Virus record (IMG/VR): IMGVR_UViG_3300045961_000112
Span: 1-42,125 of that record
Reading direction: 5' to 3' (one strand)
Length of the DNA: 42,125 bases
Origin: a virus
Numbering within the stretch: position 1 is the stretch's first letter; every line of letters starts with the position of its first letter. Of this stretch, positions 30,830-38,349 are shown piece by piece. The notes under the pieces are model-generated. The model made no database searches and had not been told where the DNA came from. It was given only the letters and a program-made list of their open reading frames with translations. Both the position numbers and the translations under genes were made by a program.

Positions 30830-31509
30830 GAGAAGTGCTCCTCGTTGTAGTCGATGGCGGCTTGCTTGATGTCGCCCCACTTTCCCAGCCGCACGCGCAG
30901 CAGGGGCAGGGACGGCAGGTTGTAGGAGTCCACGAGCGACTCGCGCCACACGGCGTAGTGGTAGGAGCCGAAGCGGCGGCTGCCGCGCTCGGCGTCGCGC
31001 AGGAACTCCGCCACGGCGGCGATCATCTCCTCGTCGGAGAACTCGCGCGTGTAGGACGGGCGGTTGGACTCCAGCGGCTGGAGACCGGCGCGGCGCTTGG
31101 CCTCGTTCCACGAGCCGAAGCGCATCGTGTAGAGCGCGGCGCTGGGCAGTCCCCGCTCCGGGGACATGGAGCGCCAGTCGGTGATCGACAGCGGGCGTCC
31201 GGCGAGGGTGGTCTGCTCCGTGAGGATGCTCAGCAGGTCCTCGTCGGACCACTTCTTGGTCATGCCCCGGTTGCCGGAGGGCTCCACGTGGTCGCGCCAG
31301 TACTGCATGCGCTGGTCGTGCTCCGCGCGCAGCCGGTCCCGGCGCTCGCGGTTGAGTCGGGTGCGAGCCGCTCGCACTGCGAATCCGGGGCAGTCCCGCG
31401 CCACGATCTGGCGCACCCGCTCCCGCGTGATGCCGTACTGCCGGGCCACGTCGGCGAGCGTCCGGTGCTCGACGGTGACCGCGTGGACGATGGTTGCGTC
31501 CCTGTCCAT
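30826..31509 (-). CDS. Sigma-type helix-turn-helix protein with two HNH-associated repeats (227 aa)
   Basis: The first gene of the leftward arm. Residues about 10-45 form a sigma-70 region-4-like helix-turn-helix (RTLADVARQYGITRERVRQI). Two related units follow, near WSDEDLLSILTEQTTLAGRP..LPSAALYTMRFGSWNEAKRRAGL and FSDEEMIAAVAEFLRDAERG..LPSLPLLRVRLGKWGDIKQAAI, matching the HNH-endonuclease-associated repeat (PF18780-type, recalled). No nuclease domain is attached. A DNA-binding regulator is likely, and it is a natural candidate to read the dyad sites. It has a good ribosome site (GGGAGGGAG) before the ATG at 31509. A 12/13 dyad copy lies in its own coding region. Confidence 0.87.
   Translation of the reverse strand: MDRDATIVHAVTVEHRTLADVARQYGITRERVRQIVARDCPGFAVRAARTRLNRERRDRLRAEHDQRMQYWRDHVEPSGNRGMTKKWSDEDLLSILTEQTTLAGRPLSITDWRSMSPERGLPSAALYTMRFGSWNEAKRRAGLQPLESNRPSYTREFSDEEMIAAVAEFLRDAERGSRRFGSYHYAVWRESLVDSYNLPSLPLLRVRLGKWGDIKQAAIDYNEEHFS
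31371..31383. repeat. Degenerate dyad site (CTCGCACTGCGAA), in the HTH gene
   Basis: Differs from the 13-bp dyad at its first base only and lies inside the HTH protein gene, reading FAVR on the minus strand. It could be a weak autoregulatory site or coding chance. Confidence 0.5.
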
Positions 31510-31714
31510 GATGTCTCCCTCCCAAGGGACTTGTACTGTAGCACATAGGGTAACTGCCTTACGACTGCCGTGCCAAGGGGGAGGAGGGCTGGGAGCGGGA
31601 CATGGGGGCTGCATGGCGTGCATGACTGAAACATGGCGGGGCCCATTTCCAACGGGGAAGTCCAACGCGAGTTGCTGGGGGGCTCCAGATCCGCTGTGAG
31701 GCGCTGGGGGTCAT

Positions 31715-31803
31715 TGGATTACAGCCCGGTCGCCGGGAAGCCGCCCCGCTCCAGCCCAGCCCCCGACTTGGGGCAGGCACGAGGGCACCCCCCGTGTAAT
31801 CCA
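31715..31803. ncRNA. Candidate multibranched RNA or regulatory fold
   Basis: Perfect 9-bp outer arms TGGATTACA (31715-31723) and TGTAATCCA (31795-31803) enclose CCCGG-TCG-CCGGG and GCCCC-CGACTT-GGGGC hairpins. Size is close to a class II tRNA, but there is no TPsiC or D-arm signature and no anticodon stem, so it is not a tRNA. The strand cannot be assigned. Confidence 0.4.
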
Positions 31804-31894
31804 CTTCACGCTCAAGGGCCCCCCAACTGGCAGGCACACGATTCCCCCGCGTAGGCGTGTGGACTGTGGCTGGATGCTGGCCACCCCCATGGGT

Positions 31895-31918
31895 CCCCCC
31901 TCGCCTAAGGGTGGGGGG
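31895..31918. terminator. CCCCCC/GGGGGG hairpin
   Basis: Six G-C pairs around TCGCCTAAGGGT in the hub; very stable in RNA on either strand. It could stop stray transcription from either arm. Confidence 0.45.
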
Positions 31919-32000
31919 TCGCGCCCCGCTGGCAGGCCCCCTGTCAGTGGCTTACGCGGGGGTGGAGGCGGGGGGCGTAACGGCGTTACGCGGGGGGCGG

Positions 32001-32049
32001 CATTGCCCCCTAACCCGCGACCCCATGGCCCCACTGGTGTAAGGCAATG
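32001..32049. repeat. Element copy A (CCCCCTAACCCGCGAC..TGTA)
   Basis: First of five copies. Exactly 24 bases separate CCCCCTAA from TGTA. The flanks CATTGCC (32001-32007) and GGCAATG (32043-32049) are perfect inverted repeats, giving an outer stem around the core. Confidence 0.65.
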
Positions 32050-32121
32050 ACAAAGCGAGTGCTTGCCGATGTTGGCCCATGTGGGGCTACGGCCAGCCAA
32101 CCGCGCCCCCTTCCACGGAGT

Positions 32122-32174
32122 GAGCAGATACGTACCGCGCCCCACTGGGGGTGGAGATACGTACCGTGCTGCTC
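32122..32174. repeat. AGATACGTACCG pair within a GAGCAG/CTGCTC inverted repeat
   Basis: The 12-mer AGATACGTACCG occurs at 32126-32137 and 32155-32166, spaced 29 bases, flanked by the inverted repeat GAGCAG (32122-32127)/CTGCTC (32169-32174), with a CCCC-ACT-GGGG hairpin in between. A possible paired binding site. Confidence 0.45.
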
Positions 32175-32296
32175 CCCTGTCCTGCTCTCCCCTCCGGGGG
32201 TGCAGGCGTGTGTGTGTGTATGTGTCTCTGCCTGACAGCCCATGGCCTCCCGCCGATTCTGGTCGGGTGGGATGCTCCCCTGTTGGATACGGGGGG

Positions 32297-32340
32297 CTTC
32301 CCCCTAACCCGCGACTTCGGGGGTCCATGGATGTACGGAC
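32297..32340. repeat. Element copy B (CCCCCTAACCCGCGAC..TGTA)
   Basis: Second copy, same 24-base spacing. The inner hairpin GAC-TTCGGG-GGTC type is present; the outer stem is only 3 bp (TCC/GGA). Confidence 0.65.
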
Positions 32341-32348
32341 GCACCGGG

Positions 32349-32366
32349 CTCCCCCGCGAGGGGGAG
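32349..32366. terminator. CTCCCCC-GCGA-GGGGGAG hairpin
   Basis: A perfect 7-bp hairpin with a 4-base loop, downstream of element copy B. Similar hairpins occur at 32908-32926 and 35402-35424. Confidence 0.5.
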
Positions 32367-32406
32367 TGAGTGGAGCACCCCCGCCCCTTGTGGGTCGTGG
32401 TGCTGC

Positions 32407-32452
32407 GCGTCCCCCTAACCCGCGACCTCTGGGTCGCTGAGGTGTACGACGC
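32407..32452. repeat. Element copy C (CCCCCTAACCCGCGAC..TGTA)
   Basis: Third copy. The outer arms GCGTC (32407-32411)/GACGC (32448-32452) pair perfectly although their sequence differs from copy A, and the inner hairpin is GCGACC-TCTG-GGTCGC. Stem conservation with changed bases hints at a folded RNA. Confidence 0.68.
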
Positions 32453-32466
32453 AGTGCGGAGTGGCA

Positions 32467-32479
32467 TTCGCACTGCGAA
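32467..32479. repeat. Dyad site 7, TTCGCACTGCGAA, in the hub
   Basis: Exact copy 15 bases beyond element copy C. Confidence 0.9.
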
Positions 32480-32827
32480 CCTCACAGGCTGGCTCCCCCA
32501 TGGGGATGACCCGCCAGTACCGCCGCCCTTGTGCAGTCTGGCTAGGCGTGTCCTGCTCCCCACGGGAGTGTGGGCCGCTTCGGATCCGGGCGACATGGGC
32601 GGTAGGGCTGGCGGTGAGTCCCCTTGTCGGGGGTTGTTCAGTCAGCACGTCGGGCCAGCCGGTCCCCCCGCCAATCCAACCGGTCAGATCGGAACCCCGC
32701 CCCTCCGTGGGCGGCTCCTATCGCCACGTTCCCGTGGTCCTCCCGCGATTCGCCCGCTCTGGGCATGCGGCTGTCTGGGCTTCGGTTCGAGCGTGGCGGG
32801 AAGAGCGCGGGTGATCCGGTGACAAGG

Positions 32828-32940
32828 CTTCAACCTCCGGGGTTGGAGTGCTACGTAGGCCGCAATACCAAGGGGCCAGCACTCCGCCCCGGTGGTTGCC
32901 TTGGCTCTCCCCCTCGCGGGGAGGGCTTGGGGAACCACCT
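32828..32940 (+). promoter_or_regulatory. Leader with mutually exclusive stems before the rightward arm
   Basis: CTTCAACC/GGTTGGAG (32828-32835/32841-32848, one G-U) and GGAGTGCT/AGCACTCC (32845-32852/32878-32885) share four bases and cannot both form. A third stem GGTGGTT/AACCACC (32891-32897/32932-32938) encloses a CTCCCC hairpin. The set ends 19 bases before the first rightward gene, in the style of an attenuator or RNA switch. Confidence 0.5.
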
Positions 32941-32958
32941 ACTGATTGGAGACTGACC

Positions 32959-33123
32959 ATGACCACGAAGGACTTCATCCTGATCGCCAATGCGATCCAC
33001 GAGTCCCCCCTGTCTGACTACGACCGGGGTCTGGTGGGCGGCTCACTCGCCGCCGCTATCGCGGAGACCCACCCCCGCTTCGACCCGTCGCGCTTCATCG
33101 ACGCGTGCCGCTTCGGGGCGTGA
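32959..33123 (+). CDS. First rightward gene: small conserved-type protein (54 aa)
   Basis: MTTKDFILIANAIHESPLSD, then YDRGLVGGSLAAAIAETHPR and FDPSRFIDACRFGA. It has the compact helical look of tiny actinophage early proteins with a KDFxxIAxxI...FDxxRFxxAC pattern. Function unknown. GGAGACTGACC precedes the ATG at 32959. The long frame upstream is noise. Confidence 0.85.
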   Translation: MTTKDFILIANAIHESPLSDYDRGLVGGSLAAAIAETHPRFDPSRFIDACRFGA

Positions 33124-33127
33124 TCCC

Positions 33128-33244
33128 ATGGCTGCCCGCGCCTGCCCTGCCTGCAAGTCAACGTGGGACGTTGTCTTCGTCACTGACCCCGATGGGGTCT
33201 GGATGGAGTGCAACGACTGCGGCAACTTCGGCTACGTCAACTGA
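33128..33244 (+). CDS. Tiny zinc ribbon protein (38 aa)
   Basis: MAARACPACKSTWDVVFVTD followed by PDGVWMECNDCGNFGYVN. Two CxxC pairs (CPAC, CNDC) 19 residues apart form a classic zinc ribbon. It sits 4 bases after the previous stop and ends before dyad site 8. It likely binds nucleic acid or a host transcription factor. Confidence 0.75.
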   Translation: MAARACPACKSTWDVVFVTDPDGVWMECNDCGNFGYVN

Positions 33245-33269
33245 CTCCGGATGGATCAAGTGGGGAGCG

Positions 33270-33282
33270 TTCGCACTGCGAA
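33270..33282. repeat. Dyad site 8, TTCGCACTGCGAA, intergenic
   Basis: Exact copy, extended to CGTTCGCACTGCGAACG (17 bp), in the 148-base gap after the zinc ribbon gene. Confidence 0.9.
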
Positions 33283-33328
33283 CGTGTCCCTGCCTTGGGC
33301 ATCCGGCCCTACCGGGGCGATCCCGCCC

Positions 33329-33368
33329 TTCCCCCTAAGCCGCGACCATCGCGGCCCACCAGTACAAC
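33329..33368. repeat. Element copy D (CCCCCTAAGCCGCGAC..), ahead of the 268-residue gene
   Basis: Fourth copy, with a CCGCGA-CCA-TCGCGG inner hairpin, the 24-base spacing kept and TACA in place of TGTA. It is 25 bases upstream of the 268-residue gene's ATG, consistent with a promoter or leader function. Confidence 0.6.
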
Positions 33369-33392
33369 CACCGCCTGAGGAGGCAACCCGCA

Positions 33393-34199
33393 ATGAGCAC
33401 TGAGAGCATCAACACTGAGTTCGACGCCGCTTTCGCCGCACTGGTCGAGAGCACCCAGATCGACCCCACCACCACGCCTGAGGAGGCACCCGTCGTGACC
33501 ACGACGCCCAGCAAGTCCAGCAAGTCCCAGTCCACCCCCGCCCTGATCGCTCGCGTCGTGGCCACCAGCGCCACGCTGTCCAGCACCGAGGAGCAGGCCG
33601 CCGGTCTCGCCGACGGCTTCGAGGCCACCTTCGTGGCCTTCCTGTCGGAGTTCGCCACCGCCATTGAGGCCGGTGCCACGGAGTCCGACGTCCGCAAGGC
33701 GCTTCAGGCTGACCAGAAGGCCAGCGGCACCAAGCACATCGCCGCGTCGGCTGCTGGCTGCTCGCTGATCCACAACGTGGCCAAGGTCGCGGCCCTGTCC
33801 GGCGACCTGCCCACCTCGTGGGTGTGGCGTCCGGACGGCAACGCCGCCGTCGGCCTGCGTGAGGGCGAGTACTCCATCCACGCTCTGGTCCGCAAGGTGA
33901 CCACCGTGGGCGGCGTCGCCGCCGTCCGTGGCTGCTTCGCCGAGGGCACCAAGGAGGGCTTCGTCGTCGCGGCCCAGTCCATCCTCCGCGAGGCGGAGAA
34001 GGCTGAGCGCGAGGCGGCTGCCGCTGCCAAGGGCCCGAAGACGGCGGAGAAGTTCCTCAAGGCCGCGTCCGGTCCCATCGGCAAGGTCAGCGAGGCGCTC
34101 GACGCCGGTCACATCGGCGACCCGGCGGAGGTCCTCGCCCTGATCGCCGCGCTGGAGGCCACCCTCGCGGAGGCCAAGGCGCACACCGCCCTCAAGTAG
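33393..34199 (+). CDS. Hypothetical Ala-rich protein (268 aa)
   Basis: Not recognised. The N-terminal 50 residues are acidic/Thr-rich and disordered. The rest is helical and Ala-rich, with a middle segment around SWVWRPDGNAAVGLREGEYS, then a positively charged helix (REAEKAEREAAAAAKGPKTAE). A strong ribosome site (GAGGAGG) lies before the ATG at 33393. Its position as a main product behind element copy D suggests an abundant early protein, perhaps DNA-associated. Confidence 0.87.
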   Translation: MSTESINTEFDAAFAALVESTQIDPTTTPEEAPVVTTTPSKSSKSQSTPALIARVVATSATLSSTEEQAAGLADGFEATFVAFLSEFATAIEAGATESDVRKALQADQKASGTKHIAASAAGCSLIHNVAKVAALSGDLPTSWVWRPDGNAAVGLREGEYSIHALVRKVTTVGGVAAVRGCFAEGTKEGFVVAAQSILREAEKAEREAAAAAKGPKTAEKFLKAASGPIGKVSEALDAGHIGDPAEVLALIAALEATLAEAKAHTALK

Positions 34200-34209
34200 G
34201 GCACCGCCC

Positions 34210-34242
34210 GCCCCGTCGGTTCGCACTGCGAATCGGCGGGGC
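34210..34242 (+). terminator. Terminator hairpin built on dyad site 9
   Basis: A 15-bp stem with two G-U pairs and the loop ACT, whose apex is the 13-bp dyad at 34220-34232. It starts 11 bases after the stop of the 268-residue gene. The DNA dyad is thus also a terminator stem in RNA. Confidence 0.75.
34220..34232. repeat. Dyad site 9, TTCGCACTGCGAA, in a terminator
   Basis: Exact copy forming the apex of the hairpin at 34210-34242. Confidence 0.9.
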
Positions 34243-34250
34243 ACGGCCAA

Positions 34251-34314
34251 GGATGCAGGGGCAGCAAGTCAGACGCCCTCACCCCCGGCGAGAGACACAC
34301 ACGCCCCTGCATCC
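34251..34314. repeat. Inverted repeat with 12-bp arms and 40-base interior
   Basis: GGATGCAGGGGC (34251-34262) and GCCCCTGCATCC (34303-34314) are perfect complements. The interior can form a smaller stem (GCC..GGC). Located between the terminator and the DUF6891-like gene. Possibly a leader RNA fold or second terminator. Confidence 0.55.
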
Positions 34315-34327
34315 CTAGTCGTGCCCC

Positions 34328-34341
34328 GCAGTAAACGCCGC
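34328..34341 (+). repeat. GCAGTAAACGCCGC motif copy 1
   Basis: The 14-mer GCAGTAAAC(G/T)C(C/T)GC lies in the gap ahead of the 134-residue gene. Flanking GTGC and GCAC can form a small stem with AGTAAAC in the loop. Confidence 0.55.
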
Positions 34342-34380
34342 ACGCACCCCACCCCCTACCGCTCTGAGAGGAGCACCTGC

Positions 34381-34785
34381 ATGTCCGACATCACGAAGCA
34401 GCGCATCGACAAGGCGCTGTCTGAGATCAACACCCCCGCCTACGCGGAGGTGGGCCAGACCCCGCCGTCAATGCCCTACGTCTGCTGCACGTCTTGCGTC
34501 TTCAGCGGCTGGGACAAGGACGACCTCTTCTACGACGACATGACGCTCGTCGCGTACCACGAGCAGGACGCGGACTCGTCCTTCTCCAGCGTCCCCGGCC
34601 CCGATGAGTTTGGGGGTCCGATCTTCCCCGAGGACTCGATCCTGATCGCTGACCTCTTCCTCGCATGGAACGGGGATCCGGACCGGATCGCCCAAGTCCT
34701 GCGGGCCCACGGTCTGACCGTCACGGTGCCACCGTCGGGTGAGGAGAAGTTCATCATCCGCGTCCCGCATCTCCGGGCGGTCTGA
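34381..34785 (+). CDS. DUF6891-like protein (134 aa)
   Basis: The pattern of residues 20-130 (YVCCTSCVFSGWDKDDLFYD; MTLVAYHEQDADSSF; RIAQVLRAHGLTVTVPPSG; EKFIIRVPHLRAV) matches the DUF6891 family of bacterial proteins with a YHxQD motif and a terminal (I)RV strand (recalled family). Role unknown. The start is the ATG at 34381 after GAGAGGAGCACCTGC; the frame is open earlier but lacks a ribosome site. Confidence 0.8.
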   Translation: MSDITKQRIDKALSEINTPAYAEVGQTPPSMPYVCCTSCVFSGWDKDDLFYDDMTLVAYHEQDADSSFSSVPGPDEFGGPIFPEDSILIADLFLAWNGDPDRIAQVLRAHGLTVTVPPSGEEKFIIRVPHLRAV

Positions 34786-34788
34786 TCC

Positions 34789-35043
34789 ATGCCTGACGGC
34801 ACCGTCTACACCGTCAACCTCGCCGGGCCCATGGCTCCGGTCGAGGTCCAGTACGGCAGCCTGACCGACGCAATCGCTGCGTGGGATCGGGTCACCGCGA
34901 CCACCGCCGGAGTCATCGGCGGCATTCAGGTCCAGACGTTCAAGAACGGGCTCATGGTCCGGGACGGCTGGATCCTCCACGTCCGCAAGGACAGCACGTA
35001 CCTCAACCCCAGCATCATGCTGGACCTCGCAGGAAGGCGATAG
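34789..35043 (+). CDS. Hypothetical protein (84 aa)
   Basis: Not recognised. A beta-rich protein: VYTVNLAGPMAPVEVQYGSL, DAIAAWDRVTATTAGVIGGI, FKNGLMVRDGWILHVRKDST. It follows 3 bases after the previous stop and ends 3 bases before the next start, so it is part of the same small-gene operon. Confidence 0.75.
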   Translation: MPDGTVYTVNLAGPMAPVEVQYGSLTDAIAAWDRVTATTAGVIGGIQVQTFKNGLMVRDGWILHVRKDSTYLNPSIMLDLAGRR

Positions 35044-35046
35044 TTC

Positions 35047-35190
35047 ATGGTCATCTGCCCTGTCTGCCACGCGTCCGCCCCCGTCGCCCAAGTCGGCGCG
35101 GTCACCGTGCAGATCCGCACCCACTTCAGCGCGCGCCAGAACGGCTCGACGTGCGCTGGTAGTGGGCTCACCGTCAACGTCTACCGCTAG
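35047..35190 (+). CDS. Tiny Cys-containing protein (47 aa)
   Basis: MVICPVCHASAPVAQVGAVT, then VQIRTHFSARQNGSTCAGSG and LTVNVYR. It begins with CPVCH and has a later H/C pair (THFSARQNGSTC), a probable CxxC...HxxxxxxxxxC zinc unit common in small actinophage proteins. The ATG at 35047 follows the previous stop at 35043. Confidence 0.72.
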   Translation: MVICPVCHASAPVAQVGAVTVQIRTHFSARQNGSTCAGSGLTVNVYR

Positions 35191-35202
35191 GAGGATGTCG
35201 CG

Positions 35203-35385
35203 ATGTTCAACCGACTCGCTGCATTCTCCGAGTCCACCGAGGGTCTGACCCTCGACCAGTTCCGCGCGTTCGAGTCGTTCTTCATCGGGTACGTGGCTCA
35301 CGCCGTGCCGGAGAAGGACTGGACCGAGGGACTCACCGCTGCTCGTGAGCACGCCGCCGCAGTAAACTCCGCGCCGCCCGGCTGA
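35203..35385 (+). CDS. Hypothetical small helical protein (60 aa)
   Basis: MFNRLAAFSESTEGLTLDQF, then RAFESFFIGYVAHAVPEKDW and TEGLTAAREHAAAVNSAPPG. The ribosome site TAGGAGG precedes the ATG at 35203. Its last codons contain the GCAGTAAACTCCGC motif in the frame Ala-Val-Asn. Function unknown. Confidence 0.78.
   Translation: MFNRLAAFSESTEGLTLDQFRAFESFFIGYVAHAVPEKDWTEGLTAAREHAAAVNSAPPG
35359..35372 (+). repeat. GCAGTAAACTCCGC motif copy 2
   Basis: Located at the 3' end of the 60-residue gene (reads A-V-N-S-A), 13 bases before its stop codon ends. Confidence 0.55.
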
Positions 35386-35401
35386 GCATCCTGATTCGTG
35401 T

Positions 35402-35424
35402 CCCCTCCCCCTCGTGGGGAGGGG
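35402..35424 (+). terminator. Strong GC-rich terminator hairpin
   Basis: CCCCTCCCC-CTCGT-GGGGAGGGG: nine perfect pairs and a 5-base loop, 17 bases after the 60-residue gene. No U-run follows, as is common in high-GC actinophages. Confidence 0.8.
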
Positions 35425-35455
35425 CTACGGGCCAGCCTGCTCAGGCTGATCCCCG

Positions 35456-35500
35456 CTTGCCCCCATAACCGCGACCCTCGCGGTCCATGGATGTAGGCAT
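35456..35500. repeat. Element copy E (CCCCCATAACCGCGAC..TGTA), before the AAA+ gene
   Basis: Fifth copy; inner hairpin CCGCGA-CCC-TCGCGG, outer TGCC/GGCA, ending GGATGTAGGCATT. The total length is kept despite an inserted A. It lies 28 bases before the start of the MoxR-type gene, supporting a promoter/leader role. Confidence 0.65.
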
Positions 35501-35527
35501 TCCCACCACAGAAGGAGGATGGTCAAC

Positions 35528-36937
35528 GTGGCCACCCGCACCCCCGCACTGTTCGCAGTGCGAATCAGCAACGACGACTCCACCGCGCAGTTGGCGGTGT
35601 GGGTCGAGGATGCGACCACCAAGATGTGGCTCCGCACCCAGCCCGACGCTTCCACGCCCAAGCCCCGCTGGATGGACGCGGTCCTGCCCCCCACGCTGTG
35701 GCCGGGCAAGTCGGCGTCCGCCGCACGCGGTGCTATCGGCACGGTGCAGGGCTACCTGTCCCGCAAGATGTCGTCCTCGTCGCCGATCAAGATCGACGGC
35801 GTCTGGATGCTGGAGTTCACCGACGAGGATCACAAGACCCTCGACGCGCTGATCTCCGATCCGGCCAACGCGGACACCAACTCGCTGAAGACCCGCATCG
35901 CGCGCGTCTTCGACGGTCCTGCTCCGCGCTCCATCTCGCTCGACTCGCTGGGTGAGGCGGCTGAGTGGATCGTCAACGGTCCGGTCATCGCCCTGCGCGA
36001 CGGCTCCATGGAGTCCTACACGGAGTCGGTGCTCAAGGGCCCGTCCGCGTCGGCCATTCCCGTGCTGGACGCTGACGAGGTCGGCGGCATCCCGCTGACC
36101 GACGGCAAGACCGTGTTCGTCCCGCGCGCATGGTGGGGAGGGCTGACTGACGTCACCTTCCTGCGTCAGGCTCGCGAGGCGGGCGTGTACGTCCTGCTGG
36201 CTGGCCCTCCGGGGACCGGCAAGTCGGCGCTGGTCGAGGCCGCGTTCATCAACGAGTACCGCGACGCGGGGCTCGTGTTCAAGGAGGACGCGCTGCTCGT
36301 CGGCACTGAGGACACCACCGTCGCTGACATCGTCGGCGGCATGGCTCAGGACGAGGACGGGATCTTCCGGTTCAAGCCCGGCAAGGCGATCAAGTGCGCG
36401 CTGGCTGGCGTTCCGTTCTTCGTGGACGAGGCGCTGCTGATCGACCCGCGCGTGCTGTCGGTCCTCTACTCGCTCATCGACGGTCGCGGCATCCTGCCGC
36501 TGCCGGAGGAGTACCGGTACGAGGCACCGGACGGCACCAAGAACGCCGTCCATGCCAAGGAGGGCTTCTACATCGTGTTCGCCGGTAACCCCGACGTGCC
36601 CGGTGCGGTCATCAGCGAGGCGCTCGCCTCGCGGTGCGTGCTCAAGCCGGAGTACCTCACCGACTACGACACCGCCTCCACGCTGATGGGTCCGGCGCAC
36701 GACGAAATCGTGACCGTCGCCCGCAACATGGAGACGAAGCGTCAGGAGGGCGAGGTCATCTGGGCTCCCCAGATGCGCGACCTGCTGGGCTACCGCGATG
36801 TCGCGACTGCCTTCGGCACGGAGGTCGCCTTGAGCAACCTCCTCGCCAACTGCACCAGCGACAGCGACCGCGAGGTCCTGTCCGACGTGATCGCCCGCAC
36901 CATGGGCGTCAGCAACGTGCGGCCCTTCCGCATGTAG
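35528..36937 (+). CDS. MoxR-type AAA+ ATPase (469 aa)
   Basis: Walker A is LLAGPPGTGKSALVEAAF (about residues 224-241), Walker B is VPFFVDEALL (about 296-305), sensor 1 is FAGNPDVP and there is an Arg-finger-type SRC segment. The MoxR family pairs with VWA proteins and acts as a chaperone-like motor; the two next genes fit that pairing. Residues 1-170 are a non-catalytic N-domain with no familiar motif. The start is taken as the GTG at 35528 because AGGAGG sits immediately before the in-frame ATG at 35519 (zero spacing) and 9 bases before this GTG. A dyad site lies in codons 9-13. Confidence 0.92.
   Translation: MATRTPALFAVRISNDDSTAQLAVWVEDATTKMWLRTQPDASTPKPRWMDAVLPPTLWPGKSASAARGAIGTVQGYLSRKMSSSSPIKIDGVWMLEFTDEDHKTLDALISDPANADTNSLKTRIARVFDGPAPRSISLDSLGEAAEWIVNGPVIALRDGSMESYTESVLKGPSASAIPVLDADEVGGIPLTDGKTVFVPRAWWGGLTDVTFLRQAREAGVYVLLAGPPGTGKSALVEAAFINEYRDAGLVFKEDALLVGTEDTTVADIVGGMAQDEDGIFRFKPGKAIKCALAGVPFFVDEALLIDPRVLSVLYSLIDGRGILPLPEEYRYEAPDGTKNAVHAKEGFYIVFAGNPDVPGAVISEALASRCVLKPEYLTDYDTASTLMGPAHDEIVTVARNMETKRQEGEVIWAPQMRDLLGYRDVATAFGTEVALSNLLANCTSDSDREVLSDVIARTMGVSNVRPFRM
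35552..35564. repeat. Dyad site 10, TTCGCAGTGCGAA, at the 5' end of the AAA+ gene
   Basis: Exact copy about 24 bases inside the AAA+ coding region, encoding F-A-V-R. A bound protein would block early elongation of transcription. Confidence 0.9.
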
Positions 36938-37053: not shown

Positions 37054-38349
37054 ATGTCCACCCGTTCACTCAACGAGCGCGAGTCCAAGGTCCCCCCGAC
37101 GGATCCGCGCTGGTACCCCACCACGCAGGGTCTCAACCGCTGGCTCAACCGCATGGCTGACCGCAACGACCTTGCTGTCCGCGTGCTCAAGCACACCTCC
37201 GGTGCTCCGGCCCGGTTCGTGCCCACGGCTGCGGAAATCGACATCAACGAGGGCCTGATCTCGCGGATCGACCCGGTCATCGCGGGCTCCCCGGAGTTCG
37301 TGGTGAAGCACCGCGCGGTGGCTGGTGCCTGTGTCCACGAGGCGGCGCACGCTCGCCACTCGACCCGGATCAACCTGCCCAAGATCGCCAAGCAGTACGG
37401 GCATCGTCACACCGCCACCTTCGCGATGCTGGAGGAGGGTCGCTGCGAGACACAGCAGTGGCCCAACCTCAACGACGTCGAGAAGTTGGCGCTCCAGTCC
37501 ATGGTCCTCGAAATCGTCCTGCGCGACATGCAGAACGACGAGGGCGAGACCGTGCCGCTCGACATGCACGGCGTCATCCGCCTGTGCGGCCTGCTGTCCG
37601 CCCGGATCAACACCGGGATCGTGGACATCAGCCAGCCGCTGGGTGGTCGCATGCACCAAGCGCTGATGGACGCGCTGGGTGCTGACTTCGCCTCGCTGTA
37701 CGACATCGCTGTCCGGTTCAGCATGGAGCGCCTCGACTGGTACTCCTCGTCTGAGGACACGCTCCACGAACTGGTCAAGCAGTGGATGGAAATCGAGGAT
37801 CGCCTGCTCCCACCGTCCGACGAGGACGGCGAGGGTGAGGGCGACGGCGAGGGTGAAGGCGAGGGCGAGGGCACCGGCAAGTCCAAGTCCAAGTCCAAGG
37901 GCGAGTCCAAGGACAAGGGCGAGTCCGACGGCGAGGCGGGCGACGAGTCCGATGACGACGCGTCTGACGAGTCCGACGGCAAGGGCGAGGGCGAGGGCGA
38001 GGGTGACGACAAGGGCACCGCGTCCGACCCCGGTGACCCCAGTGACGGCGATGAGGCTGACGACGATGTCGTCGGTGACGACGACGAGGGCGAGGTCGGC
38101 GATGGGTCCAACACCCTGACCCCGACGGATGCCGACGGCGAGGCTTCGCTGGGTGACTACGCGTCCTCCAACGTGGACGCTGGCACCTTCGCCGACATCT
38201 TCGAGGCCGTGCGCGATGCAGCCGAAGAGGCTGAGCACGTGTCCGGCTCCCGCCTGCGCGAGCAGGTCGTGGCCATTCACAAGGCGACCGCCGCATCCCA
38301 CGCGGAGCGTCGCCGCAAGAACGCCGAAGCGCTCAAGCGCTGGCGCTGA
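37054..38349 (+). CDS. HExxH protein with long acidic linker (431 aa), CobT/DUF2201_N-like
   Basis: Residues 90-130 contain GACVHEAAHARHS (H95E..H99) and a downstream FAMLEEGRCE (E127/E128), a gluzincin-like zinc site. From about 265 to 350 is an Asp/Glu/Ser/Gly linker with repeats such as EGEGDGEGEGEGEG and KSKSKSKGESKDKGES. A helical tail (HKATAASHAERRRKNAEALK) ends it. Putative metallopeptidase plus acidic linker plus separate VWA protein resembles a split CobT-like or DUF2201-type partner of MoxR ATPases. The start is the ATG at 37054, after CTAGGAGG. Confidence 0.87.
   Translation: MSTRSLNERESKVPPTDPRWYPTTQGLNRWLNRMADRNDLAVRVLKHTSGAPARFVPTAAEIDINEGLISRIDPVIAGSPEFVVKHRAVAGACVHEAAHARHSTRINLPKIAKQYGHRHTATFAMLEEGRCETQQWPNLNDVEKLALQSMVLEIVLRDMQNDEGETVPLDMHGVIRLCGLLSARINTGIVDISQPLGGRMHQALMDALGADFASLYDIAVRFSMERLDWYSSSEDTLHELVKQWMEIEDRLLPPSDEDGEGEGDGEGEGEGEGTGKSKSKSKGESKDKGESDGEAGDESDDDASDESDGKGEGEGEGDDKGTASDPGDPSDGDEADDDVVGDDDEGEVGDGSNTLTPTDADGEASLGDYASSNVDAGTFADIFEAVRDAAEEAEHVSGSRLREQVVAIHKATAASHAERRRKNAEALKRWR

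Follow-up and report, generated by a model that had tools for sequence, protein, structure and literature searches.

We analysed a stretch of viral DNA comprising the whole of IMG/VR record IMGVR_UViG_3300045961_000112 (42,125 bases; 'the window') and describe a two-part element of 36 nucleotides (nt) that occurs in it five times (copies A–E), always on the plus strand. The window encodes a tailed phage, with the terminase, portal and major capsid genes all pointing leftward. Its terminase shares 52% identity with the one of Streptomyces phage BRock, which has a genome of 112.5 kb whose annotation includes a tail sheath; because of this relationship, the window probably represents part of a larger genome. 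The last leftward gene starts at 31546 and the rightward gene block begins near 32959. The divergent region between them, about 1.4 kb long, showed no protein-level conservation in any preferred frame. It is bordered on its leftward side by an HNH-like gene and holds copies A–C; D and E stand directly ahead of two rightward genes. Positions of all these features are collected in Table 1.

The five copies and the conserved signal that they carry are real. They had been proposed from the sequence alone, at positions 2–5 bases ahead of the CCCCC with which each copy begins. A 16-mer is identical in A–C and has one mismatch in D and three in E; when up to three mismatches were allowed, seven matches were found, with 1.05 expected. 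The core of the first block, CCCCC-N-W-A-N-CCGC, which the window spells CCCCCTAACCCGCGAC, has exactly five matches on the two strands of the 42-kb window, all at A–E. Dinucleotide-shuffled windows contained 0.10 matches on average and never more than one (300 shuffles). The extended consensus consists of block 1 (YTT-CCCCC-N-W-A-N-CCGC) and block 2 (YCATGG-N-TGTA-N-G), with about 10 bp of free spacer between them and a centre-to-centre distance of about 23 bp. Positions 17–21, within the spacer, are random; the flanking blocks and the distance between them are fixed. The sequence-only reading claimed a gap of 24 bases between the first eight bases and TGTA. A, B, C and E keep this gap exactly, and the 'TACA in D' is more aptly regarded as the GTA moved two bases upstream. 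Two copies were also said to lie 25–28 bases before gene starts. This holds for D, 26 nt ahead of the start codon at 33393; for E the distance is 23 nt to the ATG at 35519 or 32 nt to the GTG at 35528, as start of the AAA ATPase gene.

Searching IMG/VR with the terminase turned up a relative, contig IMGVR_UViG_3300005824_000021 (loci L007 and L077), whose terminase large subunit (TerL) is 87% identical to that of the window. Four syntenic copies, L1–L4, are present in L007 as orthologues of A–D and keep the same 36-nt register. A weight matrix built from the five window copies only ranks their sites 1–4 on both strands of L007 (scores 26.2, 19.8, 18.2 and 17.4; next-best site 11.6). In the reverse test, the L007 matrix places E, B, A and C at ranks 1–4 in the window and D at rank 6. 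At the position expected for E, before the L007 AAA ATPase gene, there is a degenerate trace only. The resulting set of nine copies, five from the window and four from one relative (both genomes being probably fragments), points rightward without exception (9/9). GTA starts at position 34 in seven of the nine, including A, B, C and E, and at position 32 in D and its orthologue L4. All four L007 copies spell block 1 as CCCCCGWAACCGCTG, in place of the CCCCCTAACCCGCGAC of the window. Because the copies are syntenic, share one register and carry the spelling of their own phage, the element is conserved and its block 1 has altered in concert within each phage, as would be expected for the target of a phage-specific factor.

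Table 1. Copies of the two-part element and associated features. Coordinates refer to the window unless L007 is named.
Feature	Position	Strand	Remarks
Copy A	32006..32041	+	Exact 16-mer, 36-nt register; no inner inverted repeat; orthologue L1
Copy B	32300..32335	+	Exact 16-mer; no strong inner inverted repeat (4 bp only); orthologue L2
Copy C	32411..32446	+	Exact 16-mer; 6-bp inverted repeat GCGACC-TCTG-GGTCGC at 32422-32437; fold z -3.1; orthologue L3
Copy D	33331..33366	+	Perfect inverted repeat GCCGCGA-CCA-TCGCGGC at 33339-33355; GTA 2 nt upstream; orthologue L4
Copy E	35460..35495	+	Perfect inverted repeat ACCGCGA-CCC-TCGCGGT at 35468-35484; L007 lacks a clear orthologue ahead of its AAA gene
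L1	L007 2922		Control region
L2	L007 3218		Control region; interval from L1 296 (A to B, 294)
L3	L007 3352		Control region; interval from L2 134 (B to C, 111)
L4	L007 4914		Precedes the gene homologous to that behind D; own perfect 7-bp repeat, unlike that of D
Conserved structured non-coding domain, ~210 nt	32686-32895 (L007 3640-3843)	+	Downstream of A–C, before the first rightward gene
Gene downstream of D	33393..34199	+	Encodes 268 aa of no known family; identity with the homologue following L4, 47%
Gene downstream of E	35519..36937	+	AAA_5 (MoxR/CobS-like) ATPase
Palindrome TTCGCASTGCGAA	4700, 14619, 15599, 20188, 25904, 29777, 32467, 33270, 34220, 35552, 37020, 38354, 39200, 40400, 41603		One-base variant at 31371

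Further relatives were sought in several ways. The exact 16-mer had no match in IMG/VR, the L007 contig was the sole match to a degenerate bipartite pattern, and L007 was likewise the sole relative found by alignment of the AAA ATPase and of the protein encoded at 33393. Two scans of genome contigs added nothing. No copy is present in BRock or in regions from four large freshwater relatives, and L008, the closest relative by TerL, stops short of the position of copy A.

The sequence-only reading had described a structured element with an inner hairpin around GCGA in each copy. This is so for D and E, which have perfect 7-bp inverted repeats with three-base loops; the 6-bp repeat of C lies in another register, B has 4 bp only, and A, L1 and L2 have no inner inverted repeat. 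Folds of single copies are far better than those of shuffled sequences for C, D and E (z = -3.1, -3.5 and -4.8); those of A, B, L1 and L2 are no better. Four of the nine copies (D, E, L3 and L4) have an inner stem that is anchored in block 1 and at least 6 bp long, whereas random spacers gave a mean of 0.35 such copies (P = 0.0002, for a length threshold chosen after the copies had been inspected). The compensatory changes anticipated in relatives gave a mixed picture: the arms of D and L4 differ, yet both form perfectly self-complementary 7-bp repeats, whereas the pairs A/L1 and B/L2 lack an inner stem. The strings claimed as outer stems in A and C are present, but over all copies such pairing does not exceed chance (summed duplex energy, P = 0.70); A and L1 alone share an outer-stem register, with seven of ten positions paired in both and two double changes.

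These data bear on a rival explanation, in which the element acts at the RNA level, its transcript hairpin serving in leaders as a signal for processing, antitermination (put/nut-like) or translational control. The strong folds of C, D and E, the arms of D and L4 that differ but remain complementary and the double changes in the common outer register of A and L1 would fit such a role, as would the structured RNA that adjoins the copies (see below). However, RNAalifold gave no consensus pair over the nine copies, the structure of E is paired in 52% of cells across copies compared with 50% in shuffles, and the spacing of the blocks is maintained even in copies without a hairpin. Together with the four copies that fold no better than shuffles and the outer stems at chance level, this makes an RNA-level function rather unlikely. 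Rfam covariance models had no match at gathering score, and a lax search gave only weak matches far below the cut-offs. Since there is no consensus structure, outer stems do not exceed chance and a strong inner repeat is confined to D, E, L3 and L4 (with a different one of 6 bp in C), what the copies have in common is their sequence and spacing and not an RNA fold. The inverted repeat is an extra of C-, D- and E-type copies, which may be a DNA dyad or an RNA hairpin.

The adjoining conserved domain, downstream of A–C, is probably a new structured leader RNA. Its consensus fold has 72 predicted pairs, 12 of them with double changes and none broken, in a structure fitted to the same two sequences (window and L007). 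The fold z is -3.9 in the window and -1.4 in L007. A hairpin at the 3' end, GAGTGCT...AGCACTC, shows three consecutive double changes around the invariant loop TAGGCCGCARTACCAAGGGGCC. The domain matched no Rfam family, and a search with a 16-mer taken from it found only chance matches apart from L007. It would be transcribed from copies A–C.

We favour the reading that the copies are rightward promoters of a class specific to the phage, each a bipartite DNA element, and give it a probability of about 0.52. The confinement of block 1 to these five sites and the top ranks of the L007 sites under the window matrix speak for it. It is preferred because of the position next to Shine-Dalgarno sequences, which lie between element and start codon in D, E and L4 (element 23–32 nt upstream), the single orientation, the fixed spacing of the blocks, the synteny and the concerted change within each phage. 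Of the three roles offered in the sequence-only reading (promoter, leader RNA or processing signal), it is also the best supported, although 'structured' does not describe the copies as a class. A random spacer between fixed blocks would suit a protein that reads the DNA from one face, and a block 1 that is uniform within a phage but different between phages would suit a promoter and its specificity factor. A bipartite motif, a fixed register and shared orthologous positions, as for promoters of a phage sigma factor or activator, were found over the nine copies. From these features we infer promoter activity, the transcript starts and the kind of reader. The reader would be either the RNA polymerase of the host, with its specificity changed by a sigma factor or activator of the phage, or a phage polymerase, and transcription would begin a few bases past block 2. 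Copies A, B and C would be tandem promoters from which the structured leader and the first rightward genes are transcribed; D and E would be internal promoters heading single genes, those for the 268-aa protein and the AAA ATPase. The inverted repeat between the blocks in C–E would be a secondary feature, perhaps an operator dyad.

Several observations weigh against a promoter. Copies A–C are placed 0.5–0.95 kb ahead of the first gene, and a simple promoter would not need the inverted repeats seen in D, E, L3 and L4. A scan for sigma-70/SigA promoters returned no promoter-like site in 31400-35700 at the scan threshold; the hexamers are absent, and so is a -10 sequence of the form TANNNT. Among the window proteins scanned with Pfam and PHROGs, which covered part of the open reading frames (ORFs) of what is probably an incomplete genome, no sigma factor, RNA polymerase or activator was recognised. 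The element is, moreover, known from two phages only. We also considered an extracytoplasmic function (ECF)-type promoter, as the AAC of block 1 resembles ECF -35 boxes, but TGTA appears to lie several bases too far away and the idea was rejected.

The element can be compared with extended start-associated sequences (ESAS), which in cluster K mycobacteriophages adjoin the start-associated sequence (SAS) and are intergenic, oriented and present in several copies upstream of non-structural genes (PMC3203893, PMC11373665). As here, ESAS sites are kept at orthologous genes, their consensus shifts between subclusters, they have an inverted repeat and they have been proposed to hold promoters. They differ in having SigA-like -35 and -10 hexamers 17–18 bp apart, which the window element lacks, and an imperfect inverted repeat of 15–17 bp in every copy, which is missing here in A, B, L1 and L2. 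The 13-bp SAS GGGATAGGAGCCC adjoining ESAS was not noticed in the upstream sequences here, for which no dedicated search was made.

In ESAS, an inverted repeat accompanies the SigA-like promoter, and repression through this repeat has been proposed (PMC11373665); this also lends some weight to another rival explanation, that the element is an operator and not the core promoter. Block 1 would then be a half-site and, where the repeat is present (C, D, E, L3 and L4), would form with it a dyad bound by a dimeric phage regulator, with the core promoter elsewhere or unrecognised. The perfect 7-bp dyads of D, E and L4 have arms that vary between phages yet stay symmetric, as an operator might. But A, B, L1 and L2 retain both blocks without a second arm, and neither block 2 nor its fixed distance is explained. 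A free-standing operator would not agree with the distribution of the long dyad, which was not found outside the elements in the window or L077 (one unrelated CCGCGA dyad occurs at L007 7489). We consider an operator possible, but unlikely.

Other phages offer partial parallels to a promoter. In Gordonia phage Vardy (cluster DJ), a 50-bp repeat likewise has five intergenic copies and is suggested to regulate expression; its motif holds a TATAAT -10 (PMC9671010), which the window element does not. A precedent comes from phage 7-11, whose sigma factor reads bipartite late promoters, GTAAtg-(16)-aCTA, as proven by primer extension (PMC8948821). These resemble the present copies in the two blocks, the fixed spacer and the location upstream of genes, and relatives of 7-11 keep promoter positions while the consensus changes (PMC8948821). 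Unlike in 7-11, no sigma factor gene was found among the scanned window proteins, and the distance between the blocks is several bases longer. The virion RNA polymerase of N4 requires a hairpin in all its promoters (PMC4496689). D and E are similar in carrying an inverted repeat with a three-base loop between conserved sequences; however, they are the only window copies to do so, A, B, L1 and L2 have no hairpin, and no N4-like polymerase was seen among the proteins tested. We file the element with phage-specific bipartite promoter-like elements, a known kind, as a variant.

The location of A–C, in the divergent non-coding region between the HNH-like gene and the rightward genes, could also suggest a replication origin or a DNA-end signal (packaging or terminal repeat), the more so as the terminal repeat of BRock, with its 52% identical TerL, occupies the corresponding position. 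Such a signal is very improbable, because D and E are found at gene heads 0.9 and 3 kb past C, successive copies follow at irregular intervals (294, 111, 920 and 2129), and the single orientation and the proximity to Shine-Dalgarno sequences would go unexplained.

Other repeats were seen in these phages. The palindrome TTCGCASTGCGAA occurs in 15 copies in the window, many at gene junctions in both operons, and has 34 strand-matches within two mismatches, with 0.9 expected. At seven syntenic sites of L007/L077 it is spelled TTCGAASTTCGAA or as a near variant (TTCGAACTCCGAA, TTCGAAGTCCGAA); the close relative L008 carries the window type. Besides the two-part element, this genome-wide palindrome is thus a second sequence to have changed in concert in the two genomes, which resembles repressor/stoperator systems (PMC6550527). 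Some copies lie inside long hairpins (34220, 39200 and L007 5760) and could be terminators. The short repeat GCAGTAAAC is found near gene junctions in both phages (window 34328, 35359, 36976 and 40157; L007 4815 and 6092); three window copies are followed by NCCGC, and one window copy lies within an ORF. An alignment of window, L007 and L008 shows that ACCCCCCACCCTT, on the minus strand at the leftward flank of the divergent region (region 31905-31920), is conserved in all three; it is possibly the control site of the leftward operon. BRock has a bipartite repeat of its own, CTTGAC-N17/18-TTGACT, in its rightward region (L099 8327, 8695, 9616 and 15087), in two cases 20–40 bp ahead of annotated genes. 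As to the genes behind D and E, the predicted structure of the protein encoded at 33393 was of low confidence (predicted local distance difference test score, pLDDT, 57) and left unused, and the ORF downstream of the AAA ATPase gene (37054-38349) contains low-complexity repeats of 12/18 bases at 37815-38031.

A more far-reaching and doubtful version of the promoter reading would involve an unrecognised transcription apparatus of actinobacterial viruses, with a new phage sigma factor or polymerase. The hairpin or dyad between the blocks would set the promoter class, being present at gene heads and absent from the tandem leader copies A and B, and element and reader would coevolve alongside the second, palindromic operator. 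Few promoters have been mapped in actinobacterial phages, and even those of mycobacteriophages have been called poorly defined (PMC11373665). This phage-specific class of cis-element, which is orthologous in two genomes but clearly differs in spelling between them, offers a direct handle for finding its trans-acting reader.

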